64,000 bases of DNA from Treponema ruminis (GTDB taxonomy: Bacteria > Spirochaetota > Spirochaetia > Treponematales > Treponemataceae): NCBI GenBank assembly GCA_017161305.1, contig CP031518.1:806001-870000 (forward strand). Reading direction: 5' to 3'. Of the stretch, positions 8,964-38,986 are shown piece by piece. Within the stretch, counting starts at the first letter, position 1. Each line of letters opens with the position of its first letter. The notes beneath the pieces were generated by a model, which worked only from the letters and a program-made list of their open reading frames with translations, did not search any database and had not been told where the DNA came from. The translations under genes and the position numbers were made by a program.

Positions 8964-9021
8964 AAAGGCGCCGCACTTTCAGACCGTTGTACACCAGTCT
9001 TTAAATGCGGCGCCTTTGCCG
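8964..9021 (-). promoter_or_regulatory. glnA leader module 2: hexaloop antiterminator overlapping terminator
   Basis: Read on the minus strand, a stem CGGC / GCCG at 9021-9008 encloses the hexaloop AAAGGC (A1, G4). The loop's end and the 3' arm are also the 5' arm of a terminator at 9017-8964, whose 12-bp stem TGCGGCGCC-type arms close over about 30 bases, followed by TTTTAAGTTTT. The two structures cannot form at once. This is the layout of an ANTAR-bound antiterminator; the binding protein is inferred. Confidence 0.7.
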
Positions 9022-9049
9022 TTTTTTTGATACCTGTATAAAACGAAAA

Positions 9050-9086
9050 AGGTCGCAAGAATTGCCTTCCTGCGACCTCATTGTCG
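9050..9086 (-). promoter_or_regulatory. glnA leader module 1: hexaloop antiterminator overlapping terminator
   Basis: On the minus strand, CGAC / GTCG (9086-9073) encloses the loop AATGAG (A1, G4), and its 3' arm is the start of a terminator at 9078-9050 with a 12-bp stem, a GGCAA loop and a TTTTT tail. A block of 42 bases covering this module (9046-9087) is identical in the amt leader (38946-38987). Confidence 0.75.
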
Positions 9087-9098
9087 TTTGATAGTTCT

Positions 9099-9127
9099 GT
9101 TATAGCGTGAAGAATTTTTTTTGTCAA
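9099..9127 (-). promoter_or_regulatory. glnA promoter
   Basis: On the minus strand, TTGACA (9127-9122), a 17-base spacer and TATAAC (9104-9099). Transcription should begin near 9092, only a few bases before leader module 1, leaving an untranslated leader of about 155 bases. Confidence 0.75.
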
Positions 9128-9164
9128 GTAAAAAATATTGATTTTTATTTCAAAAAATATGCTC

Positions 9165-9194
9165 TTGACCAATCTTTCGGATTTTCGATATAGT
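9165..9194 (+). promoter_or_regulatory. asnB-pyrG-carA promoter
   Basis: TTGACC at 9165-9170 and TATAGT at 9189-9194 with an 18-base spacer. The 17 bases around the -10 (GATTTTCG then TATAGTAT) match the carB promoter at 16 of 17 positions, so the two promoters look related beyond the consensus boxes. It faces away from the glnA promoter, with 37 bases between the two -35 boxes. Confidence 0.65.
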
Positions 9195-9209
9195 ATTTAG
9201 GTAAATTAT

Positions 9210-9247
9210 GTCAAAGACGACGCTATTCGTGGTAATGGTGTCGTCTT
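9210..9247 (+). promoter_or_regulatory. asnB leader module: hexaloop antiterminator overlapping terminator
   Basis: GTC / GAC (9210-9212 and 9219-9221, extendable by one U-G pair) encloses the loop AAAGAC (A1, G4). It overlaps a 14-bp terminator stem at 9214-9247 capped by the six-base loop CGTGGT and followed by eight or more T. Only one module is present, and its antiterminator stem is short. The leader ends at AATAGGAG before the asnB ATG at 9277. Confidence 0.65.
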
Positions 9248-9276
9248 TTTTTTGTTTTTGAATAGGAGATTTTAAA

Positions 9277-11031
9277 ATGTGTGGTTTTGTAGGTGCATTT
9301 GATTTGGCTTCGGGTGGAAAACCGATTGCAGAAGGATTAAAAGAAGAACTTCGTGCACAGGTTTTGGAAATGAGCAAAAAAATCCGCCACCGCGGTCCGG
9401 ACTGGAGCGGCGTTTACACAGGCAATAATGCGATTTTGAGCCATGAGCGTCTTTCTATCGTAGATCCTCTTTCAGGAAAGCAGCCTCTTGTAAGCGATGA
9501 CGGAAAAATCATTCTTGCCGCAAACGGTGAAATCTACAATCACAAGGAAATCCGCCGTGAATTTGAGGGAAAATATAACTTTTTGACAGGAAGTGACTGT
9601 GAGGCAATCATTCCCCTCTATAAAAAATACCGTGAAAGCGGAAACTTTGCTGAAATGATTGAAAAACTGAGCGGTATTTTTGCTTTTGCCCTCTATGACT
9701 CAGAAAACGACGTCTATCTTATTTCCCGCGACGAAATCGGTGTAATCCCTCTTTACCAGGGCTGGGACAAGGCCGGCCGCTACTATGTTGCAAGCGAGCT
9801 TAAGGCTCTTGAAGGCGACTGTCAGACAATCGAGGAATTCCCAAACGGACACTTCCTCTACTCAAAAAGCGGAAAAGTTGAGCGCTGGTACAAGCGTGAC
9901 TGGGAAACTTTCGATGCAGTAAAGAATTCTCCGAAAGCCACAGACGAAAAGGGCGAGGTAATCAATCCTAGCGTAATCGAAAAAGTTCGAAATGGACTTG
10001 AATCTGCCGTAAAGGCTCAGCTCATGTCTGACGTTCCTTATGGAGTACTTCTTTCAGGCGGTCTTGATTCTTCTATTATCGCCGCAATCACACAGAAATT
10101 CTCAAAAAAACGTGTTGAGACTGATTCAAAGGAAGCTGCATGGTGGCCTCAGCTCCACTCATTCGCAGTCGGACTTGAAGGTTCTCCTGACCTTATCGCA
10201 GCCCAGAAAGCGGCTGACTATATCGGAACCGTTCACCACGAAGTTCACTTTACGATTCAGGAAGCACTCGATGCCCTGCCTGACGTAATCTACCACATTG
10301 AAACATACGACATCACTACAGTCCGTGCATCAACTCCGATGTACCTTTTGGCCCGCGTAATCAAATCAATGGGAATCAAAATGGTTCTTTCGGGCGAGGG
10401 AAGTGACGAGCTTTTCGGCGGATATTTGTACTTCCATAAGGCTCCTAATGCCCAGGAATTCCACGAAGAACTTGTCCGCAAAATGAGCAAACTTCATCTT
10501 TATGACTGTCTCCGTGCCAACAAATCGCTTATGGCATGGGGTGTTGAAGGCCGCGTTCCTTTCCTGGACAAGGATTTCATCGACATTGCAATGAGATTGA
10601 ATCCGAGCGACAAAATGAACATCAAGCTGGCTGACGGCAAGCAGCGCATGGAAAAATGGATTTTGCGCAAGGCATTTGAAGACCTGCTCCCTGAAAGCAT
10701 CGCATGGCGACAAAAGGAACAGTTCTCTGACGGAGTCGGCTACAACTGGATTGATACCCTCAAAAAAATGACAGAAGAAAAGGTAAGCGACGCAGAATTT
10801 GCCCGCCGTGAAAACCGCTTCCCGGTAAATCCTCCAAAGACAAAAGAGGAATACTACTACCGAGAAATTTACAGCCGCCTCTTCCCAAGCGACTCTGCTG
10901 CCCGCTGTGTTCCTCACGAAGCCGGAGTTGCCTGCTCAACAGCAAAAGCCCTGGAATGGGATGCCGCATGGAAGAACATGGATGAACCATCAGGAAGAGC
11001 AATCGCTGGAGTGCACGACAAAGCATATTAA
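9277..11031 (+). CDS. asnB: asparagine synthetase B, glutamine-hydrolysing
   Basis: It converts aspartate, glutamine and ATP to asparagine. The chain starts Met-Cys-Gly, so removal of Met exposes the N-terminal Cys nucleophile of the class II glutaminase domain (residues 1-200; 'RHRGPDWSG', 'LSHERLSIVD', 'ANGEIYNH'). The synthetase domain follows from about residue 230 with the ATP pyrophosphatase loop 'LLSGGLDSSII', then 'VLSGEGSDELFGGY' and 'GVEGRVPFLDK'. 584 residues is a normal length. It is the first gene of an apparent operon with pyrG and carA (gaps of 30 and 22 bases); all three spend glutamine amide nitrogen. Control is probably through the leader module at 9210-9247. Confidence 0.95.
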   Translation: MCGFVGAFDLASGGKPIAEGLKEELRAQVLEMSKKIRHRGPDWSGVYTGNNAILSHERLSIVDPLSGKQPLVSDDGKIILAANGEIYNHKEIRREFEGKYNFLTGSDCEAIIPLYKKYRESGNFAEMIEKLSGIFAFALYDSENDVYLISRDEIGVIPLYQGWDKAGRYYVASELKALEGDCQTIEEFPNGHFLYSKSGKVERWYKRDWETFDAVKNSPKATDEKGEVINPSVIEKVRNGLESAVKAQLMSDVPYGVLLSGGLDSSIIAAITQKFSKKRVETDSKEAAWWPQLHSFAVGLEGSPDLIAAQKAADYIGTVHHEVHFTIQEALDALPDVIYHIETYDITTVRASTPMYLLARVIKSMGIKMVLSGEGSDELFGGYLYFHKAPNAQEFHEELVRKMSKLHLYDCLRANKSLMAWGVEGRVPFLDKDFIDIAMRLNPSDKMNIKLADGKQRMEKWILRKAFEDLLPESIAWRQKEQFSDGVGYNWIDTLKKMTEEKVSDAEFARRENRFPVNPPKTKEEYYYREIYSRLFPSDSAARCVPHEAGVACSTAKALEWDAAWKNMDEPSGRAIAGVHDKAY

Positions 11032-12675
<1,644 letters not shown>

Positions 12676-12697
12676 GTCCGGCGTTAAGAGGAATAAA

Positions 12698-13891
12698 ATG
12701 AGCAAAGCATATTTGATTCTTGCTGATGGAAGCTTTTTTGAGGGAAATTCTATCGGAGCAGAAGGCAAAACGATTGGTGAAACGGTTTTTACAACCGGAA
12801 TGACGGGCTACGTTGAAACTTTGACTGACCCAAGCTATTTCGGTCAGATTGTTACCCAGACTTTTCCTTTAATCGGAAACTACGGAGTCCAGCCCGAGGA
12901 TTTTGAGAGCAAAAAAAGCTGGGTTCGCGGATATATTGTCCGGGAACTTTGCGACGGACCAAGTAATTTCCGCTGCCAGGGTGACCTGGATTCTTTCCTT
13001 AAAGCACAGAATATCGTGGGAATTTGCGGAATTGACACAAGAAAACTCACGAAAATTCTGCGTGAAGCTGGTGTCATGAACGGAATGATAATCAGCGGCC
13101 AGGAAGCTGAGAAAATAGGGATTAAGAAAGCTGATGATGGTTCTTGCCAGCTTGTCTCAGAAGCCATATTGAAGGAAATTAAAGAATATAAGATAGAAAA
13201 TGCCGTCGAAAGCGTTCAAAGCCTTTGTAAAGAAAAGGGCGGGGATTTTAAGGGGCAGCGCCCCTTAGGAGAAGGGGTAGCGGAAAACGCCGAAGGCGCT
13301 TGCAGCGAGGGGGAGACTTCCCCCGTTAAATTCTCTGTCTGTCTCTTTGATTTCGGTGCAAAGGCAAATATTGAGCGGGAACTTGAAAAACGGGGCTGTA
13401 AGGTCACTGTTCTTCCATACGATGCCACGGCTCAGGATGTGATTGAGCTTAATCCGGACGGAATTATGCTCAGCAACGGTCCTGGAGACCCTGCGGAGAA
13501 TGTCAGTATAATAGAAGAAATCAGAAAGTTGTGCCAGTCAAAGATTCCGATTTTTGGAATTTGCCTTGGTCATCAGATGCTTGCCCTGGCCCGGGGTGCA
13601 AAAACTTCTAAGCTCAAATACGGTCACCGTGGCGGAAATCACCCGGTAAAGGATTTGGAGAGCGGTCGGGTTTACATCACCAGCCAGAACCACGGCTATG
13701 CTGTTGAAAGCGACACGATTCCAGCCTATGCCAAACTGAGCTTTGTAAATGCCAATGACAATACTTGCGAGGGCCTGACATACACTGATATTCCGGCCTT
13801 CAGCGTTCAGTTCCACCCGGAAGCCTGTGGCGGTCCTCATGACACGAATTTCCTCTTTGACAGATTCATTGCCATGATGCAGGAAAAATAG
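12698..13891 (+). CDS. carA: carbamoyl-phosphate synthase small subunit, with in-frame repeat insertion
   Basis: CarA hydrolyses glutamine and passes ammonia to CarB for carbamoyl phosphate (pyrimidine and arginine synthesis). Seen: the N-terminal CPSase small domain ('GMTGYVETLTDPSYFGQ' region), then a class I glutaminase with the catalytic Cys in 'IFGICLGHQM' and His-Glu in 'QFHPEACGGP'. Between the domains, at about residues 181-211, sits an extra Gly/Glu-rich stretch encoded by a palindromic repeat element (13249-13324) that also occurs in gltB and before galK; the frame stays open. It is third in the asnB operon. carB is separate, 6 kb downstream. Confidence 0.94.
   Translation: MSKAYLILADGSFFEGNSIGAEGKTIGETVFTTGMTGYVETLTDPSYFGQIVTQTFPLIGNYGVQPEDFESKKSWVRGYIVRELCDGPSNFRCQGDLDSFLKAQNIVGICGIDTRKLTKILREAGVMNGMIISGQEAEKIGIKKADDGSCQLVSEAILKEIKEYKIENAVESVQSLCKEKGGDFKGQRPLGEGVAENAEGACSEGETSPVKFSVCLFDFGAKANIERELEKRGCKVTVLPYDATAQDVIELNPDGIMLSNGPGDPAENVSIIEEIRKLCQSKIPIFGICLGHQMLALARGAKTSKLKYGHRGGNHPVKDLESGRVYITSQNHGYAVESDTIPAYAKLSFVNANDNTCEGLTYTDIPAFSVQFHPEACGGPHDTNFLFDRFIAMMQEK
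13249..13324 (+). repeat. palindromic repeat element inside carA
   Basis: It starts with a perfect 8-bp hairpin (TAAGGGGC, loop AGC, GCCCCTTA). Then come AGAAGGGGTAGCGGAAAACG, a GC-rich inverted repeat around CGCCGAAGGCG, and a terminal GGGGGA / TCCCCC hairpin. The middle and end closely match the element in gltB (27508-27577), and the ends match the one at 46239-46316. It adds about 30 residues to CarA without breaking the frame. Confidence 0.75.
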
Positions 13892-14784: not shown

Positions 14785-14794
14785 TTTTTTTGCC

Positions 14795-19980: not shown

Positions 19981-20020
19981 GTCAAAGGCGACATCATTCC
20001 ACGGGGGTGCTGTCGCTTTT
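19981..20020 (+). promoter_or_regulatory. carB leader module: hexaloop antiterminator overlapping terminator
   Basis: GTC / GAC (19981-19983, 19990-19992) encloses the loop AAAGGC (A1, G4). It overlaps a 10-bp terminator stem (19984-19993 with 20011-20020) followed by eight T. Transcription should begin at about 19980, so the module is at the very 5' end of the RNA. The antiterminator stem is only three pairs, the weakest of the set. Confidence 0.6.
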
Positions 20021-20042
20021 TTTTATTCAGGCGAGGTTAGAA

Positions 20043-23000
20043 ATGCCACTTAATAAAAATATCCACAAAGTTATGATTATTGGTTCCGGCCCGATTGTAA
20101 TCGGTCAGGCAGCGGAATTTGATTATGCAGGAAACCAGGCTTGTAAAGCCTTAAAGTCACTGGGACTTGAAGTTTGTCTTGTGAATTCAAACCCTGCAAC
20201 CCTCATGACGGACCATTTTATGGCGGATGAGATTTATCTGGAGCCGCTTACGCTTGAATCTTTGCAAAGAATTATCGAAAAAGAAAAGCCCGATTCACTT
20301 CTTTCGACTTTGGGCGGTCAGACAGGCCTCACTCTGAGTATGGAGCTTGCAAAATCAGGATTTTTAAAGAGCCACAATGTACAGCTTTTGGGTGCCCGGC
20401 CGGAGACAATCGACAAGGCCGAAGACCGACAGATGTTCAAGGATACTATGGAAGCAATCGATGAGCCCTGCATTCCGAGTAAGGTCGTTACGACTTATGA
20501 AGACGCGGCTGATTTTGTTCATAATGTGATTGGATTCCCGGCAATTATCCGACCGGCATTTACGCTCGGTGGTACCGGCGGCGGTATCGTAAACAATGAC
20601 CGGGAGCTTGACGAGATTGCCCACAATGGCCTTCACCGCTCGCCGATTCATCAGATTCTTGTTGAAAAATGTATTTCAGGCTGGAAGGAAGTTGAATTTG
20701 AGGTAATGAGGGATTCAACAGGCAACGTAATCACAGTCTGTTCAATGGAAAACTTTGACCCGGTCGGCGTCCACACAGGAGACTCAATTGTAATCGCTCC
20801 GACAGTAACCCTTGCCGACAAAGAATATCAGATGCTCCGTTCTGCGGCCTTAAACATTATTTCAGCCCTTGAGATTGAAGGCGGCTGTAACTGTCAGTTT
20901 GCCTTAAACCCGGATTCTTTTGAATATGCTGTAATCGAAGTAAACCCTCGTGTTTCACGCTCTTCAGCCCTCGCTTCAAAGGCCACAGGCTATCCGATTG
21001 CAAAAGTTGCGGCCCTGATTGCGGTCGGCTTTACCCTCGATGAAATTCCTAACTTCGTAACCAAAAAGACAAAAGCCTGCTTTGAGCCAGTTTTGGATTA
21101 TGTCGTAGTAAAAATGCCGAAATTCCCGTTCGACAAATTCGTTTATGCAGCCCGAAAGCTCGGTACCCAGATGAAGGCGACAGGCGAGGTAATGGCAATC
21201 GGCCAGAATTTCGAGGAAGCAATCTTAAAGGCTGCCCGCGGTCTTGAAGTCGGAGTAAAGGACTTGAACCTTCCAGCCTTTGTAAAGGAAAGTGACGAGA
21301 AAATCCGCGAGCGGGTAACAAAATGCACTGACCAGAGGATTTTTGCAATTTACCAGGCTTTGAAGAGAAATCTTCTTACAGTCGAAGAAATTCACGAAAT
21401 CACAAAGATTGACGAATGGTTCTTGTGGAAACTTGAAAAGATTTGCAATGCCGAAAAAGCAGCCGGCGAAAAGATGCTCTTCCAGCCAAAGAGTTTCAAA
21501 ATGGTTGATACCTGTGCGGGCGAGTTCGATGCGGAAACTCCGTATTTCTACTCAACGACATCAGGCGAAAACGAAGCCGAGACCTTCCTGAATGAAAGAA
21601 AACGCTCATCAAAAGGAACTATCGTAGTCCTCGGTTCTGGACCAATCCGAATCGGTCAGGGAATTGAGTTCGACTATGCTAGCGTTCAGTGCGTGCGTGC
21701 CCTCAAAAAACTGGGCTACGAGGTCGCAATCGTAAACAATAACCCTGAGACCGTTTCGACAGACTTTGACACGGCGGACAGGCTTTACTTTGAGCCGCTA
21801 ACTCCGGTTGATGTCATGAATGTCCTTGCCGTTGAAAAGCCGCTCGGCGTTGTAGTTGCCTTTGGCGGCGGAACTGCGATTAAGCTTGCTAAATTCCTTG
21901 ACGAACAGGGAATCAAGATTCTCGGAACCAGTGCCGATGCAATTGACCTTGCCGAAGACCGCGAGCGTTTTGAGGAGCTTTGTGACCGGCTTCAAATCAA
22001 ACGGCCGAAGGGAATGACCGTCTTTACTGAGGTTGAGGCTCTTGAGACTGCCGAAAAAATCACTTACCCGGTTTTGATGAGGCCTAGCTATGTTTTGGGC
22101 GGCCAGAACATGATTGTTGCCCGAAACTCTGCTGATGTAAAGGAATACATGGCAATCATCCTGCGCCAGAAAATCGAAAATCCTGTTTTGATTGATAAAT
22201 ATATGGAAGGAAAGGAACTTGAAGTCGACTGTATCTGCGACGGCGAGAATGTCCTTATTCCTGGAATCATGGAGCACATCGAGCGTACCGGAATCCACTC
22301 AGGCGACTCGATTGCAGTCTATCCGGGCGAGTTTGAATCTGACATCGAATCAAAAATCGTAAAGCAGTCGGTTGACTTAGCCCTTGCCCTGGGAACAAAA
22401 GGTCTTGTAAACATCCAGTATTTGATTTACGAAAATGACCTCTATATCATCGAGGCAAATCCGCGCTCAAGCCGAACCGTTCCTTACATTTCAAAAGTTT
22501 CGGGCATTCCGATGATTGACCTTGCAACCCGGGCAATGCTGGGCGAGAAGGTGAGTGAAATGGGCTACGGAACAGGCCTCTACCGAAAGCCGAATTATTT
22601 TGCAGTAAAAGTTCCTGTCTTCAGCTTTGAAAAGCTCATGGATGTGGACACTCATCTTGGTCCTGAAATGAAGTCAACCGGCGAAGTTCTGGGAATCGCA
22701 AGCACAAGAAATGAAGCAGTTTTCAAGGGCATGGCCGCTGCAGGCTGGAAGAGCCTGAAGACTGGCGGCGTTTTGTTCTCTGTTCGCCAGAGCGATTTGC
22801 CAGAGCTTCCGTCCCTTGCCCGAAAATTCTATGATCTGGGCTTTAAATTGTACGCTACCAGCGGAAATGCGGCTACAATCGAGCGTTCCGGCATGGAAGT
22901 TGAGTATGTTGCAAAAGTTCATGAAAACTACAATGACAATGTAATGACCCTGCTTGAAAGCGGAAAGGTAGTCTATGTCGTTTCAACCTCAGCCAAGGGC

Positions 23001-23162
23001 CGAGACCCGGTAGCAGAAAGCGTCAAGCTCCGCCGCCTTGCAGTAGAACGTGACATCGACTGCCTCACAGCCATCGACACGGCAAATGCACTGGCAGACT
23101 GTTTGGCAAGCCCCTATACGCTAGGAAATGCAAGCCTGGTAGACATCAACCACGATTTATAA
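20043..23162 (+). CDS. carB: carbamoyl-phosphate synthase large subunit
   Basis: CarB makes carbamoyl phosphate from bicarbonate, two ATP and ammonia supplied by CarA. Two ATP-grasp halves are visible: 'VMIIGSGPIVIGQAAEFDYA' opens the first and 'VVLGSGPIRIGQGIEFDYA' the second (from about residue 530), each with 'EVNPR' or 'EANPRSSRT' metal-site motifs. A C-terminal MGS-like allosteric domain ends the 1039-residue chain. I chose the ATG at 20043 behind GAGG; a GTG at 20007 lies within the terminator. It is monocistronic and far from carA, but shares its leader type. Confidence 0.95.
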   Translation: MPLNKNIHKVMIIGSGPIVIGQAAEFDYAGNQACKALKSLGLEVCLVNSNPATLMTDHFMADEIYLEPLTLESLQRIIEKEKPDSLLSTLGGQTGLTLSMELAKSGFLKSHNVQLLGARPETIDKAEDRQMFKDTMEAIDEPCIPSKVVTTYEDAADFVHNVIGFPAIIRPAFTLGGTGGGIVNNDRELDEIAHNGLHRSPIHQILVEKCISGWKEVEFEVMRDSTGNVITVCSMENFDPVGVHTGDSIVIAPTVTLADKEYQMLRSAALNIISALEIEGGCNCQFALNPDSFEYAVIEVNPRVSRSSALASKATGYPIAKVAALIAVGFTLDEIPNFVTKKTKACFEPVLDYVVVKMPKFPFDKFVYAARKLGTQMKATGEVMAIGQNFEEAILKAARGLEVGVKDLNLPAFVKESDEKIRERVTKCTDQRIFAIYQALKRNLLTVEEIHEITKIDEWFLWKLEKICNAEKAAGEKMLFQPKSFKMVDTCAGEFDAETPYFYSTTSGENEAETFLNERKRSSKGTIVVLGSGPIRIGQGIEFDYASVQCVRALKKLGYEVAIVNNNPETVSTDFDTADRLYFEPLTPVDVMNVLAVEKPLGVVVAFGGGTAIKLAKFLDEQGIKILGTSADAIDLAEDRERFEELCDRLQIKRPKGMTVFTEVEALETAEKITYPVLMRPSYVLGGQNMIVARNSADVKEYMAIILRQKIENPVLIDKYMEGKELEVDCICDGENVLIPGIMEHIERTGIHSGDSIAVYPGEFESDIESKIVKQSVDLALALGTKGLVNIQYLIYENDLYIIEANPRSSRTVPYISKVSGIPMIDLATRAMLGEKVSEMGYGTGLYRKPNYFAVKVPVFSFEKLMDVDTHLGPEMKSTGEVLGIASTRNEAVFKGMAAAGWKSLKTGGVLFSVRQSDLPELPSLARKFYDLGFKLYATSGNAATIERSGMEVEYVAKVHENYNDNVMTLLESGKVVYVVSTSAKGRDPVAESVKLRRLAVERDIDCLTAIDTANALADCLASPYTLGNASLVDINHDL

Positions 23163-23211: not shown

Positions 23212-24747
23212 TTACCTCATCAGCCAGTCATCGATTGCCTTTGCACAGGCTCGGCCTTCTGCGATTGCCCAGACTACCAGCGACTGGCCTCTGTGCATGT
23301 CTCCGGCCGTGAAGATTTTTTCGTTTTCGGTCTGGTAGCTTTCTGCTGAGGATGTGACTACTGTGTTTCGTGGAGAAAGCTTTGTTCCGAATGATGAAGC
23401 TGAGTATTCTTCTGCGCCCAAAAATCCTGCCGCAACAAGAATCAAATCTGCCTCAAGTTCCTTTTCGCTTCCTTCGATTTCAACGAGTTTTCTTACTCCG
23501 TCAACGTTCTTGAACTCGACTTCAACTGTCTTTACGCCGGTGACTTTTCCGTCCTTTGAATAGACTTCCTTGATTGTGGTTTTGAAGACCCTCGGATCAT
23601 GGCCGAATTTTGCGATTGATTCTTCTGCACCGTAATCAGTCTTGAGGGTTTTAGGCCACTGTGGCCACGGATTGTCTGCTGTGCGCTCGAGAGGCGGTTT
23701 CGGCATCATCTCAATCTGGGTGACGCTTTTTGCGCCCAGACGGATACAGGTTCCGGTACAGTCGTTGCCTGTGTCACCGCCGCCAAGGACAATTACGCTT
23801 TTTCCTTCTATATTTATGCCTTTCTTTTCAAGTGAAAGGGCTATGTTTTTGTTGGTGATTACAAGGTCTCCGTCAAAAGATTTTTCAGCCTCGCTCAGGG
23901 CAACGACAGATTTTGTGACTTTTGTAAGAAAATCAACCGCGAACATGAGTCCGCCTTTTTCTGCCGGGAGAAGTTTTTCAGCTCCGCTTGCTGAGAGGGG
24001 GCGGGGATTTTTTGCACCGCAGCAGAGGGCTACGGCATCGTAATTTTTGAGGATGTCGTCAGAAGAGAAGGTGCGGCCGACATCAGCGTTAAAGATGAAC
24101 TGAACTCCCTCATCCTTCATCAGCTGGATTCGCCTTTCGACGATTTTTTTGTCCAGCTTCATGTTTGGAATTCCGTACATCAAAAGTCCGCCGGCCCTGT
24201 CCTCACGCTCGTAAACAGTGACTGAGTGACCGCGCCTGTTGAGCCAGTCGGCTACTGCAAGGCCCGCAGGACCTGAGCCGATTACGGCAATTCTCTTTCC
24301 AGAGCGGCTTTTTGGAATTTCCGGCTTCATGTAGCCTGTGGCAAAGGCCCTCTCGATGATGTAAAGCTCGTTGTCGTGAATCGTGACAGCGTCATTTTCG
24401 AGGTTGCAGGCCTTTTCACAGAGAGCCGGGCAGACACGACCAGTAAATTCAGGGAAACTTGAAGTCTTTAAAAGCCTCCATGCTGCCATGTCATATTGAC
24501 CCTTGTAAAGGGCGTCGTTCCATTCCGGAATAAAGTTGTGGAGCGGACAGCCTGTGACCATTCCACCTAATCTTATCGCGCTCTGGCACATCGGAACACC
24601 GCAGTTCATGCAGCGGGCAGCCTGCTCGCGGCGGGCCTTGTCGTCAAGAACAGGATGAAATTCCTTAAAATTCGTTATTCTTTCGAGTGGAGCAAAATTA
24701 CCGTTCTCCTTTCTCGCATAATCCATAAATCCAGTGAGCTTTCCCAT
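23212..24747 (-). CDS. gltD: glutamate synthase small subunit
   Basis: The FAD/iron-sulfur subunit of GOGAT passes electrons from NAD(P)H to the large subunit. The N terminus has the Cys-rich cluster region 'ARCMNCGVPMCQ' and 'GCPLHNFIPEWN', with 'FTGRVCPALCEKACNL' later. FAD and NAD(P)H Rossmann motifs follow: 'IAVIGSGPAGLAVADWLNRR' and 'VIVLGGGDTGNDC', then 'FTAGDMHRGQSLVVWA'. I start it at 24747 (511 aa); the ORF opens further upstream inside gltB. It lies 25 bases after gltB and is surely in its operon. Confidence 0.95.
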   Translation of the reverse strand: MGKLTGFMDYARKENGNFAPLERITNFKEFHPVLDDKARREQAARCMNCGVPMCQSAIRLGGMVTGCPLHNFIPEWNDALYKGQYDMAAWRLLKTSSFPEFTGRVCPALCEKACNLENDAVTIHDNELYIIERAFATGYMKPEIPKSRSGKRIAVIGSGPAGLAVADWLNRRGHSVTVYEREDRAGGLLMYGIPNMKLDKKIVERRIQLMKDEGVQFIFNADVGRTFSSDDILKNYDAVALCCGAKNPRPLSASGAEKLLPAEKGGLMFAVDFLTKVTKSVVALSEAEKSFDGDLVITNKNIALSLEKKGINIEGKSVIVLGGGDTGNDCTGTCIRLGAKSVTQIEMMPKPPLERTADNPWPQWPKTLKTDYGAEESIAKFGHDPRVFKTTIKEVYSKDGKVTGVKTVEVEFKNVDGVRKLVEIEGSEKELEADLILVAAGFLGAEEYSASSFGTKLSPRNTVVTSSAESYQTENEKIFTAGDMHRGQSLVVWAIAEGRACAKAIDDWLMR

Positions 24748-24772
24748 TTCTTTTTTCTCCCTTTTTCCTTTT

Positions 24773-27700
24773 TTACTTAGCCTGCATTGCTGCAATTTTT
24801 ACTTTGAGGTAGTCGTTTGGAATAATCTTCTTGAAGCGCGGAATATAACTCTCAAAGTCGGAAAGAATCTCCCTGCCTTTTTCTGAGCCGGTTTCCTTGA
24901 CGTGCTTTTCAAGAAGGGAACGGAGTTTTTCGACATCAGGATTGCTGCCGTCAGCAAATTTTTCATCTACAAGTGCCGTAACTTCATCGTCCAGGTCGTA
25001 CATCGTGACGAATTCACGGTTGAGCTTTTTGTAAACCTCGTGCTTTTCGTCGAGGATGTATGCGATGCCGCCGCTCATTCCGGCTGCAAGGTTTCGTCCT
25101 GTCTCGCCAAGAATGACCGCTACGCCGCCTGTCATGTATTCAAGGGCATGGTCGCCAGTTCCTTCGACAACAGCAGTTGCGCCCGAATTTCGTACGCAGA
25201 ATCGCTCTCCTGCAACACCGTTGATGAAAGCCTGTCCGCTTGTTGAGCCGAAGAGGGCAACGTTACCAATGATGATGTTTTCGTCAGCCTTTCCGCCAAA
25301 ATCACCAGCCTTTTTAACTACGATTTTTCCGCCGCTCAGGCCCTTTCCGAGATAGTCGTTTGCATCTCCCTCAAGGTAAACGCTCAAGCCCTTTGGAATG
25401 AAGGCTCCGAAGCTCTGTCCGGCACCACCGGCAAAATGAACTTTGAATGCATCTTCCTCAACTTTTCCGCCGTATTTTTTCTGAATCTCGCTGCCCAAAA
25501 TAGTGCAGGCTGTTCTGTCTGTTGATTCAATGCGGTAGTTTGAAGAGCTGGCATTTTCCTTCAGTTCTGCCAGAAGTTCCTTCATATCAAGAGTTGCTTC
25601 CAGCTTGAAGTCGTAGAGGCTGCGCTCAGTTTTCCAGCTTTCAGCTTTTCCTTCTTCTGCCTTTGCAAGGACTCGTGACAGGTCAAGAAGGTTTGCCCGC
25701 TTAAAGCCCTGCTTTTCCTTGAGCTTGAGAAGGTCAGTTCTTCCGCAAAGTTCCTCGACTGTCCTGATTCCGAGCTTTGCCATGAATTCACGGAGTTCTT
25801 CTGCTACAAAGCGCATGAAATTCTCAACATATTCTGCCTTGCCCTTGAAGTTTGCACGAAGTTTTTCGTTCTGGGTTGCGATTCCGAAAGGACAGGTATC
25901 GCTCTGGCAGGCACGCATCATTCGGCAGCCCATTGTTACGAGAGGAGCTGTCGCAAATCCGAATTCCTCCGCACCGAGCAGGGCCGCAATAGCAACATCA
26001 CGTCCGCTCATGAGTTTTCCGTCGGTTTCGATGATTACCCGGCCGCGTAAGCCGTTCTGAATCAGAGTCTGGTGGGCTTCGGCTAGTCCTAGCTCCCAAG
26101 GTAAGCCTGCATTGTGAATTGATGAGATTGGAGCCGCACCAGTTCCGCCGTCGTGACCTGAAATCAAGATTACCTGGGCACCTGCTTTTGCAACACCGGC
26201 TGCGACAGTTCCGACACCAGCTTCACTTACCAGCTTGACGCTAATTCGGGCATCCCGGTTGGCATTCTTCAAGTCGTAAATGAGCTGGGCCAGATCCTCG
26301 ATTGAATAGATGTCGTGGTGTGGTGGAGGCGAAATCAAGCTTACTCCAGGAGTTGCATAACGGGTCTGGGCAATCCAGGGATAAACTTTCTTTCCAGGAA
26401 GGTGTCCGCCCTCGCCAGGCTTTGCTCCCTGTGCCATTTTAATCTGAATCTCTTTTGCGCTGAGAAGATATTCTTCTGTAACGCCGAATCGTCCCGAAGC
26501 GACCTGCTTGATTGCGGAATTGAAGACAGTTCCCAGACGCTCTGGTTTTTCGCCGCCCTCACCACTGTTGCTTTTTCCGTGAAGGTGATTCATTGCCTCG
26601 GCCATGCACTTGTGGGCTTCCTCAGAAATTGAGCCGTAAGACATGGCACCAGTCTTAAAGCGCTGAACGATTTGGTCTACGCTCTCGACTTCATCAAGCG
26701 GGATTCCGCTGTTTTTGTCGTAGTTGAAATCAAGCATTGCGCGCAGTGTGTGTGGCTTTTCGTCAGCATCAACAAGGGCAGTGTATTCCTTGAATCGCTT
26801 GTAGTCGCCTTTCTGTGTCGATTCCTGAAGTGCGATGATTGTCTCAGGATTGTAAAGATGGTCTTCTGCTCCAGGACCCCGACGCATCTTGTGGTAGCCG
26901 GTTGAATCCAGGTGGCTGTTTTCCGTGAGGCCGTTTGGATTCCATGCCTTGTTGTGGTGATAGATGATGTCTTCTTCGATTTCCTTGAGGGTGATTCCGC
27001 CGACTCGGCTGACCGTGTTTGTGAAGTATTTTTCAGTGACTTCAGGGGAAATGCCGACAGCCTCAAAAATCTGTGCCGACTGATAAGACTGAACCGTGCT
27101 GATTCCCATCTTAGCGCCGATTTTTACGATTCCGTTGATGATTGCGAAATTGTAGTCGTTGATTGCCGTGTGGTAGTCCTTGTCGAGGATTTTCTGGTCA
27201 ATGAGCTCAGCGATTGCCTCATGGGCAAGGTAAGGATTTACAGCCCGCGCACCATAGCCTAAGCACATTGCAGCCTGATGAACATTGCGGACTTCAGCGC
27301 TCTCAAGGAGGATTGAAATCTTTGTTCGTTTTTTTGTGCGGATAAGATACTGCTCAACGGCACTGACAGCGAGCAGGGAAGGAATTGCCGCATGTTTTTC
27401 GTCAACGCCACGGTCAGAAAGAACGATGATGTTGTAGCCATCTTCATAAGCCGAATCAATCTGCTTGAAAAGATTTTCCAGTGCCACCTCAAGAACTGGG
27501 GGCGTTGTGGGGGTAGCCCCCGCAGAAGGGGTAGCGGAAGACGCGTCAGCGGCTGCAGCGAGGGGAAGGCTTTCCCCGCTTTCAATTTTCAATTTTCCGT
27601 TTTCAATTTTTAGAAGCAGTGAAAGTGTCGTCGTTCTCAGGCCTTTCTGGTCCAGTGCCTTGATTTTAATCAGGTCTGTGCCTGTGAGGATCGGATTGTG

Positions 27701-29329
27701 GATTTCGAGGACATGGCAGTTTTTGCCCTTTGGATCAAGAAGGTCGCCGTCACTTCCGACATAGACAGTCGTGTCAGTTACGATTTTTTCACGGAGTGAG
27801 TCAATCGGCGGGTTTGTGACTTGGGCGAAGAGCTGCTTGAAGTATTCAAAAAGACTCGGGTGATTGTCGCTCATGCAGGCAAGCGGTGTGTCAACGCCCA
27901 TAGATCCGATCGGCTCGACACCAGTTTTTGCCATTGAAAGAACCATCTCGTTGACGTCCTCGTAATTCCAGCCGAAAGCCCTGTAAAGCCTGTCCCGTTC
28001 TTCCTGAGTTGAAACAGGAACCTTTTTGTTAGGAATCTTGAGGGATGCAAGCTGGATGAGGTTCTGGCTGATCCATTCGCCGTAAGGATGCTCAGATGCG
28101 TAGTGACTCTTGATTTCGTCGTCTGTGATGACTTTTTTTGCCTTTGTATCGACCAGAAGCATTTTTCCCGGCATGAGGCGTGATTTTTTGACGATTTTGC
28201 TTTCCGGGATTTCAAGAACGCCGACTTCCGAGCTGAGGATGAGCATGTTGTCGCTTGTGATATAGTAGCGGCTAGGGCGAAGTCCGTTTCGGTCGAGTGT
28301 GGCACCCAAAACGTCACCGTCGCTGAAAAGGATTGCGGCAGGACCGTCCCATGGCTCCATCATTGTTGCCCAGTAGTGGTAGAAGTCTTTTTTGTCCTGA
28401 CCGAGGGTGTCTTCGTGCTTCCATGCCTGTGGGATACAGACCATTACGGCAAGAGGCAAGTCCATTCCGTTCATTACCAGATATTCAAGAGTGTTGTCGA
28501 GCATTGCCGAGTCAGAGCCTGTCGTGTCGACTTCACCTTCGCGGGCAATCATGCGGTCAACGTTTCCGCGGATTGTATTGATTTCGCCGTTGTGGGCGAT
28601 AAAGCGGTTAGGGTGGGCTCTCTGCCAGCTTGGGTTAGTGTTTGTAGAAAATCGTGAGTGAACGAGGGCAAGTGAAGAAGAATAAAGATCAGATTGAAGG
28701 TCATGATAGAAAGTGCGGAGCTGCTGGACAAGGAACATTCCCTTGTAAACGATTGTCCTGCTGCTCATGGAACAGATGTAAGTTTTTGAATCTGCTCCTT
28801 TTTCAAAGGCAAGGCGGGCTTTATAAAGGAGTTTGTCGAACTCAAGACCCCTCTCGCAGTTTTCCGGGCGGGCTAGAAAGGCCTGCCATACTTCCGGCAT
28901 ACAGTCCCTTGCTTTCTGGCCAAGGACTTCGGCTTTTACAGGAACTTTTCGCCAGCCGATGAAATTCAATTTTTCTGAGGCACAGATTTTTTCGAAGCGA
29001 GATTTTTCTGATTCGAAATTATCTGCCGGGAAGAAGAACATTCCGATTCCGTAGTCTCTCTCGTCTCCCAAAGATTCAATTTTTTTGCCAGCCAGTGAAA
29101 TCTCGCCTTTTTTTGCGGCTTCATTAAAAAAATCGTGGCTGATCTGGACGAGGATTCCAACGCCGTCACCTGTTTCGCCGCTAGCGTCTTTGCCAGCGCG
29201 ATGCTCCAGTTTTTCGACGATGGAAAGAGCATTTTCAACGACTCCGTGCGATTTTTTGCCATCAATGTTAACGACCGCTCCGATACCGCAGGAATCATGC
29301 TCAAACGATGGTTCGTAAAGTGTCTTCAA
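24773..29329 (-). CDS. gltB: glutamate synthase large subunit, with in-frame repeat insertion
   Basis: It transfers the glutamine amide to 2-oxoglutarate, giving two glutamates. A short propeptide precedes the nucleophile Cys in 'HDSCGIGAV'. Then come the class II glutaminase domain, the central domain, the FMN/3Fe-4S synthase domain ('AGAQVILISGHDGGTGAAP', 'GCRMMRACQSDTCPFGIATQ') and the C-terminal glutamate-synthase beta helix ('GGVAVILGETGRN'). AATAGGAG lies eight bases before a TTG, so I take TTG 29329 as the start, not ATG. Residues about 570-613 are an Ala/Pro/Thr-rich insertion encoded by a palindromic repeat (27508-27577) and an adjoining repeat. The leader holds two antiterminator modules. 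Confidence 0.94.
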   Translation of the reverse strand: MKTLYEPSFEHDSCGIGAVVNIDGKKSHGVVENALSIVEKLEHRAGKDASGETGDGVGILVQISHDFFNEAAKKGEISLAGKKIESLGDERDYGIGMFFFPADNFESEKSRFEKICASEKLNFIGWRKVPVKAEVLGQKARDCMPEVWQAFLARPENCERGLEFDKLLYKARLAFEKGADSKTYICSMSSRTIVYKGMFLVQQLRTFYHDLQSDLYSSSLALVHSRFSTNTNPSWQRAHPNRFIAHNGEINTIRGNVDRMIAREGEVDTTGSDSAMLDNTLEYLVMNGMDLPLAVMVCIPQAWKHEDTLGQDKKDFYHYWATMMEPWDGPAAILFSDGDVLGATLDRNGLRPSRYYITSDNMLILSSEVGVLEIPESKIVKKSRLMPGKMLLVDTKAKKVITDDEIKSHYASEHPYGEWISQNLIQLASLKIPNKKVPVSTQEERDRLYRAFGWNYEDVNEMVLSMAKTGVEPIGSMGVDTPLACMSDNHPSLFEYFKQLFAQVTNPPIDSLREKIVTDTTVYVGSDGDLLDPKGKNCHVLEIHNPILTGTDLIKIKALDQKGLRTTTLSLLLKIENGKLKIESGESLPLAAAADASSATPSAGATPTTPPVLEVALENLFKQIDSAYEDGYNIIVLSDRGVDEKHAAIPSLLAVSAVEQYLIRTKKRTKISILLESAEVRNVHQAAMCLGYGARAVNPYLAHEAIAELIDQKILDKDYHTAINDYNFAIINGIVKIGAKMGISTVQSYQSAQIFEAVGISPEVTEKYFTNTVSRVGGITLKEIEEDIIYHHNKAWNPNGLTENSHLDSTGYHKMRRGPGAEDHLYNPETIIALQESTQKGDYKRFKEYTALVDADEKPHTLRAMLDFNYDKNSGIPLDEVESVDQIVQRFKTGAMSYGSISEEAHKCMAEAMNHLHGKSNSGEGGEKPERLGTVFNSAIKQVASGRFGVTEEYLLSAKEIQIKMAQGAKPGEGGHLPGKKVYPWIAQTRYATPGVSLISPPPHHDIYSIEDLAQLIYDLKNANRDARISVKLVSEAGVGTVAAGVAKAGAQVILISGHDGGTGAAPISSIHNAGLPWELGLAEAHQTLIQNGLRGRVIIETDGKLMSGRDVAIAALLGAEEFGFATAPLVTMGCRMMRACQSDTCPFGIATQNEKLRANFKGKAEYVENFMRFVAEELREFMAKLGIRTVEELCGRTDLLKLKEKQGFKRANLLDLSRVLAKAEEGKAESWKTERSLYDFKLEATLDMKELLAELKENASSSNYRIESTDRTACTILGSEIQKKYGGKVEEDAFKVHFAGGAGQSFGAFIPKGLSVYLEGDANDYLGKGLSGGKIVVKKAGDFGGKADENIIIGNVALFGSTSGQAFINGVAGERFCVRNSGATAVVEGTGDHALEYMTGGVAVILGETGRNLAAGMSGGIAYILDEKHEVYKKLNREFVTMYDLDDEVTALVDEKFADGSNPDVEKLRSLLEKHVKETGSEKGREILSDFESYIPRFKKIIPNDYLKVKIAAMQAK
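27508..27613. repeat. palindromic repeat element inside gltB
   Basis: In plus-strand order: GGGGGTAGCCCCC hairpin, AGAAGGGGTAGCGGAAGACG, CTGCAGCGAGGGG and a closing GGGGAAGGCTTTCCCC-type hairpin, ending near 27577. It is followed by tandem TTTTCAATTTTC-type units to about 27613. The first 70 bases match the carA element (13249-13324) closely in order and sequence. It is read in frame on the minus strand as part of GltB. Confidence 0.75.
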
Positions 29330-29354
29330 TTTTGTTCTCCTATTCAAAACAAAA

Positions 29355-29405
29355 AAGTCGCAGACGATGCCCTTAAAAAAAACATCACCTGCGACTTCAT
29401 TGTCG
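29355..29405 (-). promoter_or_regulatory. gltB leader module 2: hexaloop antiterminator overlapping terminator
   Basis: On the minus strand, CGAC / GTCG (29405-29392) encloses AATGAA (A1, G4). It overlaps a terminator (29397-29355) with arms AAGTCGCA / TGCGACTT, an inner GATG / CATC pairing and a TTTTTT tail, just before the AATAGGAG ribosome site. Confidence 0.7.
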
Positions 29406-29429: not shown

Positions 29430-29489
29430 AAAGAGGTCGTAGATTTTACGCCTGAATCTCAAGCAGAAAATCTACGACCTCTTTGCCGT
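29430..29489 (-). promoter_or_regulatory. gltB leader module 1: hexaloop antiterminator overlapping terminator
   Basis: On the minus strand, ACGGC / GTCGT (29489-29474, one G-U pair) encloses AAAGAG (A1, G4). The overlapping terminator has a perfect 18-bp stem (29484-29467 with 29447-29430) and a TTTTGTTTTT tail. It starts at the very 5' end of the RNA. Confidence 0.72.
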
Positions 29490-29885: not shown

Positions 29886-29928
29886 GGCTTTATAATAATT
29901 CAATTAGATATATACAAATATTCGCAAA

Positions 29929-30001
29929 ACTCAATGAGCAATTTATATTGCCTAGAAAACTCAAATAGCATAATATATACTTAAGTGTAACTCAATTGAG
30001 T
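29929..30001. promoter_or_regulatory. three phased ACTCA-type operator sites between XRE gene and lipoprotein genes
   Basis: ACTCAATGAG (from 29929), ACTCAAATAG (from 29959) and the perfect palindrome ACTCAATTGAGT (29990-30001) begin 30 and 31 bases apart, about three helical turns. They surround a promoter at 29948-29976. They are good candidates for the XRE binding sites. Confidence 0.6.
29948..29976 (+). promoter_or_regulatory. promoter of the surface-lipoprotein genes
   Basis: TTGCCT at 29948-29953, a 17-base spacer containing the second ACTCA site, and TAATAT at 29971-29976. The palindromic site lies just past the predicted start near 29983. Confidence 0.6.
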
Positions 30002-30034
30002 GTCAACTTTGATGCAAGATCGTGGGGGCGAATT

Positions 30035-35588: not shown

Positions 35589-35589
35589 A

Positions 35590-36339: not shown

Positions 36340-36344
36340 AAGCC

Positions 36345-36542: not shown

Positions 36543-36574
36543 AACAGGGACTGTCCTCACGGACATTCCCTGTT
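36543..36574 (-). terminator. terminator of the Rpn remnant
   Basis: Stem AACAGGGA / TCCCTGTT with an inner TGTCC / GGACA pairing, then a T-run on the minus strand. The bases before it (CTTTCAAACAAGA) are the same as before the amt terminator at 37027-37054. Confidence 0.7.
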
Positions 36575-36592
36575 ACGTCTTGTTTGAAAGTT

Positions 36593-37000: not shown

Positions 37001-37026
37001 AAAAAAGTCAGAAAAATCCAAAAAAA

Positions 37027-37054
37027 AGGGGAATGCCCTTGAAGACATTCCCCT
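37027..37054 (-). terminator. terminator of amt-PII
   Basis: A 9-bp stem (AGGGGAATG / CATTCCCCT) with a 10-base loop and a seven-T run on the minus strand, 23 bases after the stop. Confidence 0.85.
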
Positions 37055-37076
37055 CTATCTCTTGTTTGAAAGATTT

Positions 37077-38807
37077 TTAGTCCTGCAAAGCGTCGTAACC
37101 TTCTTCGCCGGTTCTTACTTTGATTACATTCTCAACATCGTATACGAAAATCTTTCCGTCGCCGATGTGGCCTGTGTACAAAACTTCCTTGGCGGCTGTG
37201 ACAACCAAATCAACAGGAACTTCGCTTACGACGATTTCAACCTTAATCTTAGGAAGAAGTGTCATATCAATCTGAGCACCGCGGTAGAACTCTCCTGCAC
37301 CGTGCTGTACGCCACAGCCAAGTACGTTTGTTACAGTCATACCTGTTACTCCGATGTCGTTCATTGCAGACTTGATTTCGTCGAATTTTGTCTGACGTGT
37401 TACGATGACAACCTTGTGGAATTTTGCATCCGGCTTGCTTGAAGGAACTTTGACGACCGGAACAGCCTTTTCTTCCGGAACCTTTACGCCGGCAGAAGCA
37501 GCTGCCTTGAGCTCTGCGCTTGAATAGTGCTGCTCGATGTCGAAGCCTGAGTAGCTTGAATCCAAGCCGTGCTCAATCTTATCAAGACCGATGATTTCTT
37601 CCTCAACACTGACTCGCAATCCCATGATTTTCTTGATGATTGTGAAAAGGATTGTGATTGTAAGGACTGTCCAGAGCATGATGATGAACATGCCGCCGAA
37701 CTGCTTTCCGAGCTGGGCAAATCCGCCGCCGTAGAAAAGACCTTCCTGAATTCCTGCAAGTTCAAATCCTGGAGCTGATTTTGTGGCGAAAAGACCTACG
37801 GCAATTGTACCCCAGATACCGTTCATCATGTGAACTGCAACGGCACCAACCGGGTCATCAATGTGGAGCTTGTAGTCCAAAAGCCAGATTCCGAATACTA
37901 CGAGCAGGCCTGCTACGGCACCGATGATTGCCGCACCAGCACAGTCTGTAACGTCACATGGAGCTGTGATTGCAACCAATCCTGCAAGTGAGGCGTTCAA
38001 ACACATTGAAACATCAGGCTTGCCATATTTAATCCATGTGAAAATCATTGTAACTACAGTTGCAACAGCAGGAGCTACAGTTGTTGTAAGGAATACTGAA
38101 CCGAGGGTTGGAACGTCAGTTGCGGCAGCACCGTTGAATCCGTACCAGCCCAACCAGAGGATGAATACACCCAGGGCACCGATTGTCAGGTTGTGGCCAG
38201 GGAAAGCCTTTACCTTTGTGACCTTACCGGCTGCATCGCGTGTGAATTTTCCGATACGAGGACCGACCATTGCGGCACCAATCAGGGCACAGATACCGCC
38301 TACCATGTGGATACATGCTGAACCTGCGTAATCGTGGAAGCCCCACTGTGCCAAAAATCCGCCGCCCCATGTCCAGTGAGCTTCGATAGGGTAGATGATA
38401 CCAGAAATGATTGCTGAATAGATACAGTATGAGCTGAATTTTGTTCGCTCTGCCATTGCACCAGAAACGATTGTTGCTGTTGTGGCACAGAAAACAAGGT
38501 TGAAGACGAAGTTTGAGAAATCAAAGTGAGCATAGTCGCTGAAAACTGAGAAGCCGGGTTTTCCGAGAACGCTCCAGATTCCTTTGCTTACTTCACCTGT
38601 TACAGGATCTGTGAAAGAAAGCATCATTGATGCACCAATCAGGAACCACATTACGGTTCCGATACAGAAATCCATCAGGTTCTTCATGATGATGTTGCCG
38701 GCGTTTTTTGCGCGTGTGAAACCTGTCTCCACCATCGCAAAACCTGCCTGCATCCAGAATACGAATGCGGCACCAATTAAGAACCATACACTCCATAAAT
38801 CTTGCAT
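37077..38807 (-). CDS. amt: ammonium transporter fused to a PII signalling domain
   Basis: An 11-helix Amt/Mep ammonium channel (about residues 1-400) with a C-terminal PII (GlnK) domain (about 463-576) in one chain of 576 residues. The two pore histidines are seen in 'SACIHMVGG' and 'VAVHMMNG'. The PII part has 'GEFYRGAQIDMTLLPKIKVEIVV' spread over the T-loop and the following strand, but the position of the uridylylated Tyr51 is Ile. PII normally plugs Amt when nitrogen is plentiful; here it is tethered. I start at ATG 38807 behind AGGAGG. The leader carries three antiterminator modules. Confidence 0.94.
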   Translation of the reverse strand: MQDLWSVWFLIGAAFVFWMQAGFAMVETGFTRAKNAGNIIMKNLMDFCIGTVMWFLIGASMMLSFTDPVTGEVSKGIWSVLGKPGFSVFSDYAHFDFSNFVFNLVFCATTATIVSGAMAERTKFSSYCIYSAIISGIIYPIEAHWTWGGGFLAQWGFHDYAGSACIHMVGGICALIGAAMVGPRIGKFTRDAAGKVTKVKAFPGHNLTIGALGVFILWLGWYGFNGAAATDVPTLGSVFLTTTVAPAVATVVTMIFTWIKYGKPDVSMCLNASLAGLVAITAPCDVTDCAGAAIIGAVAGLLVVFGIWLLDYKLHIDDPVGAVAVHMMNGIWGTIAVGLFATKSAPGFELAGIQEGLFYGGGFAQLGKQFGGMFIIMLWTVLTITILFTIIKKIMGLRVSVEEEIIGLDKIEHGLDSSYSGFDIEQHYSSAELKAAASAGVKVPEEKAVPVVKVPSSKPDAKFHKVVIVTRQTKFDEIKSAMNDIGVTGMTVTNVLGCGVQHGAGEFYRGAQIDMTLLPKIKVEIVVSEVPVDLVVTAAKEVLYTGHIGDGKIFVYDVENVIKVRTGEEGYDALQD

Positions 38808-38834
38808 TTTTTTACCTCCTATTTTTGCAAAAAA

Positions 38835-38883
38835 ATCGACGATAACATCAGACACTGCGCACATGCCCGACACCATCGTCGAT
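38835..38883 (-). promoter_or_regulatory. amt leader module 3: hexaloop stem overlapping terminator
   Basis: On the minus strand, CGAC / GTCG (38881-38868) encloses GATGGT, which keeps G4 but has G, not A, at position 1. The overlapping terminator has arms ATCGACGAT / ATCGTCGAT (38883-38835) and a seven-T tail. It is the most divergent of the nine modules. Confidence 0.55.
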
Positions 38884-38891
38884 AATAAAAA

Positions 38892-38933
38892 AAGCCGCGA
38901 ATTCAAATTTGAACTCACGGCTTCATTGCCATG
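38892..38933 (-). promoter_or_regulatory. amt leader module 2: hexaloop antiterminator overlapping terminator
   Basis: On the minus strand, CATGGC / GCCGTG (38933-38916, one U-G pair) encloses AATGAA (A1, G4). The overlapping terminator (38923-38892) is a 13-bp stem with two wobble pairs, an AAATTT loop and a T-run. Confidence 0.72.
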
Positions 38934-38949
38934 TTAATAACACAAAAAA

Positions 38950-38986
38950 AGGTCGCAAGAATTGCCTTCCTGCGACCTCATTGTCG
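38950..38986 (-). promoter_or_regulatory. amt leader module 1: hexaloop antiterminator overlapping terminator
   Basis: Same structure as glnA module 1: CGAC / GTCG around AATGAG (38986-38973) overlapping a 12-bp terminator (38978-38950) and T-run. Forty-two bases are identical with the glnA leader. Confidence 0.75.

Follow-up and report, generated by a model that had tools for sequence, protein, structure and literature searches.

Candidate ANTAR-type antitermination leaders with single hexaloops in a nitrogen gene block of Treponema ruminis

The closest described counterparts of the leaders reported here are ANTAR-type antitermination systems. In the eut leaders of Enterococcus faecalis, the ANTAR output domain of EutV acts on hexaloops with A at position 1 and G at position 4 (A1/G4) that lie over the 5′ arm of a terminator (PMC3369931, PMC8934654); published ANTAR leaders have two such hairpins before the terminator, both of them needed. 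The receiver of EutV is phosphorylated, and the protein has a partner kinase. AmiR of Pseudomonas aeruginosa, which acts on the ami leader, is held by AmiC (PMC8934654). NitR of Clostridium saccharobutylicum can act as an antiterminator, and it induces the glutamine synthetase/glutamate synthase (GS/GOGAT) genes when nitrogen is limiting (PMC6316151, citing Stutz 2007). Since ANTAR RNAs have been predicted before many nitrogen genes, including those for P-II, ammonium transporters and glutamate and glutamine synthases (Ramesh 2012; PMC3369931), the kind of leader that we describe is a known one. Here we analyse 64,000 nucleotides (nt) of Treponema ruminis (contig CP031518.1, positions 806,001 to 870,000), hereafter ‘the window’, in which five transcription units for nitrogen metabolism, assigned with Pfam, lie in one block. 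From sequence comparison we consider it likely that the leaders of these units belong to a GS-linked, NitR-type ANTAR antitermination regulon with single, promoter-proximal antiterminators. A preliminary description of this DNA had proposed an ANTAR-type antitermination regulon, and this is still the best reading: the loops carry A1 and G4, the small stem covaries, and the leaders and an ANTAR gene occur together in near-complete relatives (28 of 28 genomes with at least two elements have the gene, and 0 of 9 genomes without it have two elements).

This candidate regulon resembles NitR and glnA-nitR in that an ANTAR-family antiterminator would serve GS/GOGAT genes, and clostridial loci that pair a type I glutamine synthetase (GSI) with an ANTAR gene also hold single-hexaloop elements. 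It differs in belonging to a Treponema group rather than to Clostridia, and in being wider, with type III glutamine synthetase (GSIII), asnB, carA, carB, pyrG and amt-PII among its members. The ANTAR nitrogen regulon predicted for Desulfotomaculum acetoxidans (Ramesh 2012) likewise has many leaders on nitrogen genes, but was found with a dual-hairpin model. The main text of that paper names neither Treponema nor spirochaetes, and no publication on the present leaders was among the literature matches listed, a search with subscription journals mostly outside its scope. The new point is that each terminator has one hexaloop, not two. Walshe 2022 (PMC8934654) suggested that an ANTAR dimer engages a single hexaloop at a time, considered why two are nonetheless needed in eut, and asked for studies of motifs with one hexaloop; the leaders described below provide many such candidates, on core nitrogen genes of spirochaetes from the gut and rumen and of Clostridia, and would represent a minimal switch.

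Hexaloop modules in the five nitrogen leaders

The transcription units that carry the leaders are as follows.

6846..8936, minus strand: glnA, glutamine synthetase type III (Pfam GSIII_N, 1.1e-83)
9277..13891, plus strand: asnB, pyrG and carA, glutamine amidotransferase genes (Pfam)
20007..23162, plus strand: carB open reading frame (ORF; Pfam)
23212..29347, minus strand: gltB and gltD, glutamate synthase (Pfam)
37077..38807, minus strand: amt-PII fusion, an ammonium transporter with a C-terminal P-II domain (Pfam; clean translation)

Direct reading and a composite scan yielded eight modules in which an A1/G4 hexaloop is joined to a terminator, all of them in these five leaders: two each before glnA, gltBD and amt-PII, and one each before asnB-pyrG-carA and carB. 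Each module consists of a 3–6 bp stem with an AAWGRN hexaloop (the putative antiterminator), and the end of the loop together with the 3′ arm doubles as the 5′ arm of a predicted terminator of 9–17 bp that is followed by a T-run. The modules are listed below with their predicted terminator energies and their scores against R1, a covariance model described in the next section; a third structure in the amt leader (amt3) is set apart.

9073..9086, minus strand: glnA module 1, antiterminator CGAC-AATGAG-GTCG (R1 58.1 bits, R1 seed)
9050..9078, minus strand: glnA module 1, terminator, 12 bp, −18.9 kcal/mol, then a T-run
9008..9021, minus strand: glnA module 2, antiterminator CGGC-AAAGGC-GCCG (R1 58.6 bits, seed)
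8965..9016, minus strand: glnA module 2, terminator, 14 bp, −34.6 kcal/mol
9210..9221, plus strand: asnB module, antiterminator GTC-AAAGAC-GAC (R1 20.3 bits, non-seed)
9214..9247, plus strand: asnB module, terminator, 14 bp, −17.7 kcal/mol
19981..19992, plus strand: carB module, antiterminator GTC-AAAGGC-GAC (missed by R1)
19985..20019, plus strand: carB module, terminator, 9 bp, −17.8 kcal/mol
29474..29489, minus strand: gltB module 1, antiterminator ACGGC-AAAGAG-GTCGT (R1 60.8 bits, seed)
29431..29483, minus strand: gltB module 1, terminator, 17 bp, −33.3 kcal/mol
29392..29405, minus strand: gltB module 2, antiterminator CGAC-AATGAA-GTCG (R1 68.8 bits, seed)
29355..29397, minus strand: gltB module 2, terminator, 15 bp, −23.4 kcal/mol
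38973..38986, minus strand: amt module 1, antiterminator CGAC-AATGAG-GTCG (R1 57 bits, seed)
38950..38978, minus strand: amt module 1, terminator, 12 bp, −18.9 kcal/mol
38916..38933, minus strand: amt module 2, antiterminator CATGGC-AATGAA-GCCGTG (R1 54.1 bits, seed)
38892..38923, minus strand: amt module 2, terminator, 14 bp, −20.2 kcal/mol
38836..38882, minus strand: amt module 3, deviant, with CGAC-GATGGT-GTCG (38881-38868) inside the terminator

The preliminary description had counted nine equivalent modules, with G4 invariant and A1 in eight of them, and had placed the loop end and 3′ arm in the terminator’s 5′ arm in every case. Its loop sequences are the same on re-reading, as are G4 in 9/9 and A1 in 8/9, and the plan fits eight modules; in the ninth, amt3, the loop begins with G, and the terminator pairs through the hexaloop’s 5′ arm and the start of the loop. 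We aligned the amt leaders of four relatives: L192, L194 and L197 keep this deviant form, and L190 does not. A long near-identical stretch lies beside amt3 in those same three leaders.

When A1 and G4 were both required, a scan of all 64 kb returned these eight modules and no other match, whereas 100 dinucleotide-preserving shuffles averaged 0.32 and never exceeded 3. With any base allowed at position 1 the scan gained two matches, both within ORFs (the corresponding shuffles averaged 1.16, with no more than 4 in any one). An Rfam search of the window returned nothing at gathering scores.

Predicted energies separate the two parts of each module: isolated antiterminator stems lie between −0.7 and −7.7 kcal/mol, the eight terminators between −17.7 and −34.6 kcal/mol, and folding of a whole module yields the terminator. 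The asnB and carB stems have only three Watson–Crick pairs (−0.9 and −0.7 kcal/mol, respectively, as isolated hairpins), and the isolated asnB 12-mer has a predicted fold that differs from the hexaloop hairpin. Bearing in mind that the antiterminators are weak and the terminators strong, the RNA by itself is predicted to terminate, and keeping the small hairpin formed would take a protein.

At the downstream ends of two of these leaders, the amt-PII start is the ATG at 38807, with AGGAGG in front, and the first GTG of the carB ORF falls inside the terminator, from which we conclude that the true carB start is probably an ATG near 20043.

Stem conservation and hexaloop number among relatives

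When all eight modules were aligned with MAFFT, those of asnB and carB were placed three bases out of register; R1 was therefore built from the other six, which have CGRC stems, with the terminator as its sole structure. The covariance-model search advised in the preliminary description, with all nine modules in the model, was thus run with six. Over the T. ruminis genome (944 candidates, 150 scored) R1 recovered its six seeds, three reverse-strand echoes and one weak match elsewhere; on the window alone it also found the asnB module, at 20.3 bits, and missed that of carB. The model is too narrow for the stem types of carA, carB and pyrG, and so further members may exist in this genome. Among 118 genomes of the same genus, T. 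ruminis included, 76 contain R1 matches (E 0.01 or better).

For a view less dependent on R1, elements were collected from the window and from relatives’ loci (L042-L120) by an AA[ACT]G[AG] loop with an overlapping terminator, the small stem not being required; the relatives’ fit to AANGRN is a product of this pattern and is no independent test of the loop. The small stem is where conservation can be seen: among 231 distinct elements, a loop of exactly six is closed by 3 bp or more in 123 and by 4 bp or more in 100. In 500 shuffles of the partner arms, stems of at least 4 bp numbered 39.0 on average and 53 at most, and in seven slid registers at most 12 elements had at least 3 bp. The stems change on both sides at once (CGAC/GTCG, CGGC/GCCG, GAAC/GTTC in carA, GAGC/GCTC in pyrG, GTC/GAC in carB), and in the alignment fitted to R1 (A6) the covariation score is above that of all 500 shuffles. 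Covariation in the small stems, the lack of which the preliminary description had said would tell against its proposal, is therefore present.

The same numbers bear on a simpler account without a regulator, in which the leaders would act constitutively, as weak terminators or as hairpins that stabilize the 5′ end. Terminators are common, and 75/231 collected elements are without any stem pair, which indicates that the collection includes ordinary terminators. That the small stem is kept so far above its shuffled partners (100 elements, where no shuffle exceeded 53), and that the genes downstream mostly belong to one pathway, make this account very improbable.

Those genes were assigned for 118 filtered elements, window’s included, that is, the 123 minus five with fewer than two G-C pairs. 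They comprise GSIII (33), gltB (16), asnB (15), pyrG (9), GSI (8), carB (7), carA (6) and gltD (2); a further 18 are unassigned and four elements have no ORF downstream. Seven of the unassigned ORFs were checked: four encode Amt, and one each a purF-like amidotransferase, a dapF-like and a PucR-like protein.

Also of interest are the clostridial GS-linked ANTAR loci (L121-L170), in which we collected 43 single-hexaloop elements, many of them ATGAGC-AAAGGC-GTTCAT. They precede GSI (10), GSIII (7), gltB (6) and 17 unassigned genes, some of which by eye resemble gdhA, asnA and amt.

The preliminary description had likened the modules to known ANTAR targets. The likeness extends to A1, G4 and the terminator overlap; it does not extend to the number of hexaloops, which is one per terminator and not the two hairpins that Ramesh 2012 required. 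We looked for a partner A1/G4 hairpin upstream of each element, without the demand for two G-C pairs because the hairpin of the control eut leader is AT-rich. In that control, the Cetobacterium somerae eutA leader (L188), the partner lies 23 nt upstream; the other control region (L187) contained no element at all. At 12–45 nt upstream, partners were found for 1/123 Treponema elements (shuffle mean 1.4), 0/43 clostridial elements (mean 0.5) and 0/8 window modules.

It could still be argued that the ANTAR system is a canonical dual-hexaloop one, and that its partner hairpin escaped our notice or comes from the adjacent module of a tandem. Of the five leaders in the window, three do have more than one module, and an A1/G4 hairpin stands 46–80 nt upstream of 12/123 Treponema elements (shuffle mean 1.2), 4/43 clostridial elements and 2/8 window modules; among the upstream hairpins listed, 12 of 13 have the sequence of a first module. 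We nevertheless regard a dual system as improbable, since partners are at chance at the spacing of the control, a single leader, in both Treponema and Clostridia, downstream partners are not above chance either (4/123 Treponema elements; shuffle mean 1.6, maximum 7), asnB and carB have one module only, and the predicted promoters mostly leave no room for a further hairpin.

This last point derives from the distance between predicted −10 boxes and stems. In the window, promoter matches of 11/12 bases (glnA, gltB and amt) or 10/12 (asnB) have a −10 box that ends 6–14 nt before the stem. The preliminary description had put the first module at about +1 to +30 behind a strong promoter, and this agrees with the predictions for these four leaders; for carB the best match is 9/12 and 25 nt from the stem, such that its predicted start is uncertain. 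Upstream matches of at least 10/12 accompany 78/123 Treponema elements, as against about 5 in shuffles, and in 84 of the 89 with a match of at least 9 the −10 box ends 6–15 nt before the stem. For clostridial elements the corresponding figures are 34/43 (2 in shuffles) and 29/35, the latter at 5–12 nt. Second tandem modules are naturally without a promoter of their own. With the −10 boxes just before the stem, the predicted transcript would begin with the hairpin. The promoters and modules of glnA (minus strand) and asnB (plus strand) stand back to back, with about 200 bp common to the two leaders (9050-9248).

The ANTAR protein of relatives and the missing regulator

The candidate regulator is known from relatives. 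PF03861 is above its curated cut-off (27.3 bits) in 91/145 genomes of the family (64.3 bits in L001), and the protein, of about 190 residues, consists of a degenerate receiver, a coiled coil and an ANTAR domain; its best solved relatives are Rv1626 (PDB: 1s8n), EutV (6wsh), AmiR (1qo0) and NasR (4akk). The arrangement of pseudo-receiver, coiled coil and ANTAR domain is that of AmiR, although no AmiC-like partner is seen here. Its gene instead has a GSI neighbour. Among the named ANTAR loci, the best 79 of 587 relatives, the ANTAR gene begins no more than 400 nt downstream of GSI in 73, that is, in 29/29 from Treponema and 44/50 from Clostridia; of the six other clostridial loci, three start close to the beginning of a contig, and in the remaining three the synthetase lies at another place in the locus.

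The receiver does not have the full acidic pocket of a phospho-activated response regulator of the EutV type: its first acid is replaced by S, T, A or C in 28/28 proteins, while Asp56, the phospho-acceptor, is kept in 26/28. The RNA-contact positions of EutV, mapped by us on our own alignment, are better preserved. The methionine plug is kept (EutV Met172, here M170, in 28/28), and the position that stacks on G4 is aromatic in kind, with His (H162, in 28/28) for EutV Tyr164; AmiR also has His at this position. The position of EutV Lys147 (here 145) is R or K in 28/28, and that of Arg142 is non-basic in the consensus.

In the glutamine synthetase of Bacillus subtilis, the arginine of the FVRIEES stretch is tied to glutamine feedback. 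This arginine is absent from the GSI of L093 (L093:7763-8992) when aligned with the B. subtilis structure 4lnf, with the catalytic motifs, judged by eye, apparently kept. The ANTAR-linked GSI is also short in Treponema, at 387–416 residues in 27/29 loci, as compared with 443 for the 4lnf chain.

Leaders and regulator were compared across genomes with R1 and an ANTAR profile, both searched, as inferred from the genome handles, against the same 118 genomes. The profile matched 105/118; in two of the genomes (G118 and G170) it matched the receiver part only, and these were counted as being without ANTAR. Of the near-complete genomes (at least 90% complete) with at least two R1 matches, 28/28 have the ANTAR gene, whereas 0/9 of the near-complete genomes without it have two matches (G126 and G152 have one each); Fisher’s exact test on 28/18 versus 0/9 gives p = 7e-4, uncorrected for kinship. 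Relatives that have the same leaders and lack the ANTAR gene, which the preliminary description had named as grounds for rejecting its proposal, are thus not the pattern found among near-complete genomes.

Several results weigh against a NitR-type regulon. Published ANTAR antitermination requires two hairpins (PMC3369931, PMC8934654), and the second is missing here. In A6, an alignment biased to CGRC stems, 2/5 pairs have changed on both sides, a level reached by 30/500 shuffles, and the elements without a stem pair, described above, count on the same side. Of the 46 near-complete genomes with ANTAR, 14 have no R1 match and four have one; the narrowness of R1 may be the reason. Furthermore, the T. 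ruminis assembly, a single contig of 2.9 Mb with an estimated completeness of 81%, contains no ANTAR gene by Pfam or the family profile, the place where the preliminary description had advised looking for one, and no GSI.

The absence of both genes from a 2.9-Mb single contig would also fit an alternative in which the hexaloops are read, at least in this strain, by an RNA-binding protein other than ANTAR. We compared the assembly with its nearest relatives by Amt-PII identity among the matches listed from 200 genomes, namely G195 and G174 (98%), G508 (95%, partial gene), G157, G113, G096, G167 and G138 (94%) and G109 (89%). All nine have an ANTAR gene; across the eight of these regions that were analysed, an R1 element immediately precedes GSI-ANTAR in six and is one more gene away in two. 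The ANTAR gene is followed by a SPOR-domain gene on the opposite strand in G195, G174, G096, G157 and G138, with rsmG further along in G174, G096 and G138. Neither the SPOR-domain gene nor rsmG was found in the T. ruminis assembly with the G174 proteins as queries; the same search recovered its Amt-PII, and the empty answer alone proves nothing. However, rsmG is to our knowledge near universal in bacteria, and a segment that lacks it is more likely to be unassembled than deleted. Genomes below 90% completeness point the same way: of those with at least two R1 matches, 4/34 are without ANTAR, T. ruminis included, which is fewer than the 6–7 predicted from their mean completeness of 80.5%. A non-ANTAR reader of the hexaloops therefore seems distinctly improbable, and the strain’s own regulator gene is probably in the unassembled part of its genome.

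Returning to the NitR-type regulon, we envisage that, when nitrogen is short, the ANTAR protein would bind and hold the single hexaloop, that this would stop the terminator from forming, and that RNA polymerase could then read into the genes for ammonium uptake, for glutamine and glutamate synthesis and for the use of the glutamine amide. Nitrogen limitation as the signal is suggested by analogy with NitR. Bearing in mind that the acid pocket of the receiver is no longer complete and that the gene neighbours GSI, the signal is probably conveyed, in the manner of AmiC and AmiR (PMC8934654), by contact with a protein, one that senses nitrogen and for which GSI would be the first candidate; the contact of B. 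subtilis glutamine synthetase with TnrA (PMC6316151) offers a model for this sensor step. A route from GS through the ANTAR protein to the leader could allow a glutamine signal to control the regulon with neither a kinase nor a DNA-binding factor. Tentatively, these loci may even represent a branch of ANTAR systems, placed beside GS in Treponema and Clostridia, that reads one hexaloop, the earliest structure to be transcribed, takes its decision within the first 40–70 nt and uses GS as a sensor by way of a dead receiver, a proposal that we hold to be possible rather than probable.

Other genes within the block

Three further genes lie among the nitrogen units. A small gene of the Cro/CI helix-turn-helix type (29550-29903, minus strand) is directly upstream of the gltB promoter. 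Beyond it, and likewise inside the nitrogen block, a gene with Listeria-Bacteroides and Big_3 repeats (29996-31681) adjoins a large BspA-type leucine-rich repeat gene (31694-35059), in which some of the repeats are 252 nt apart.

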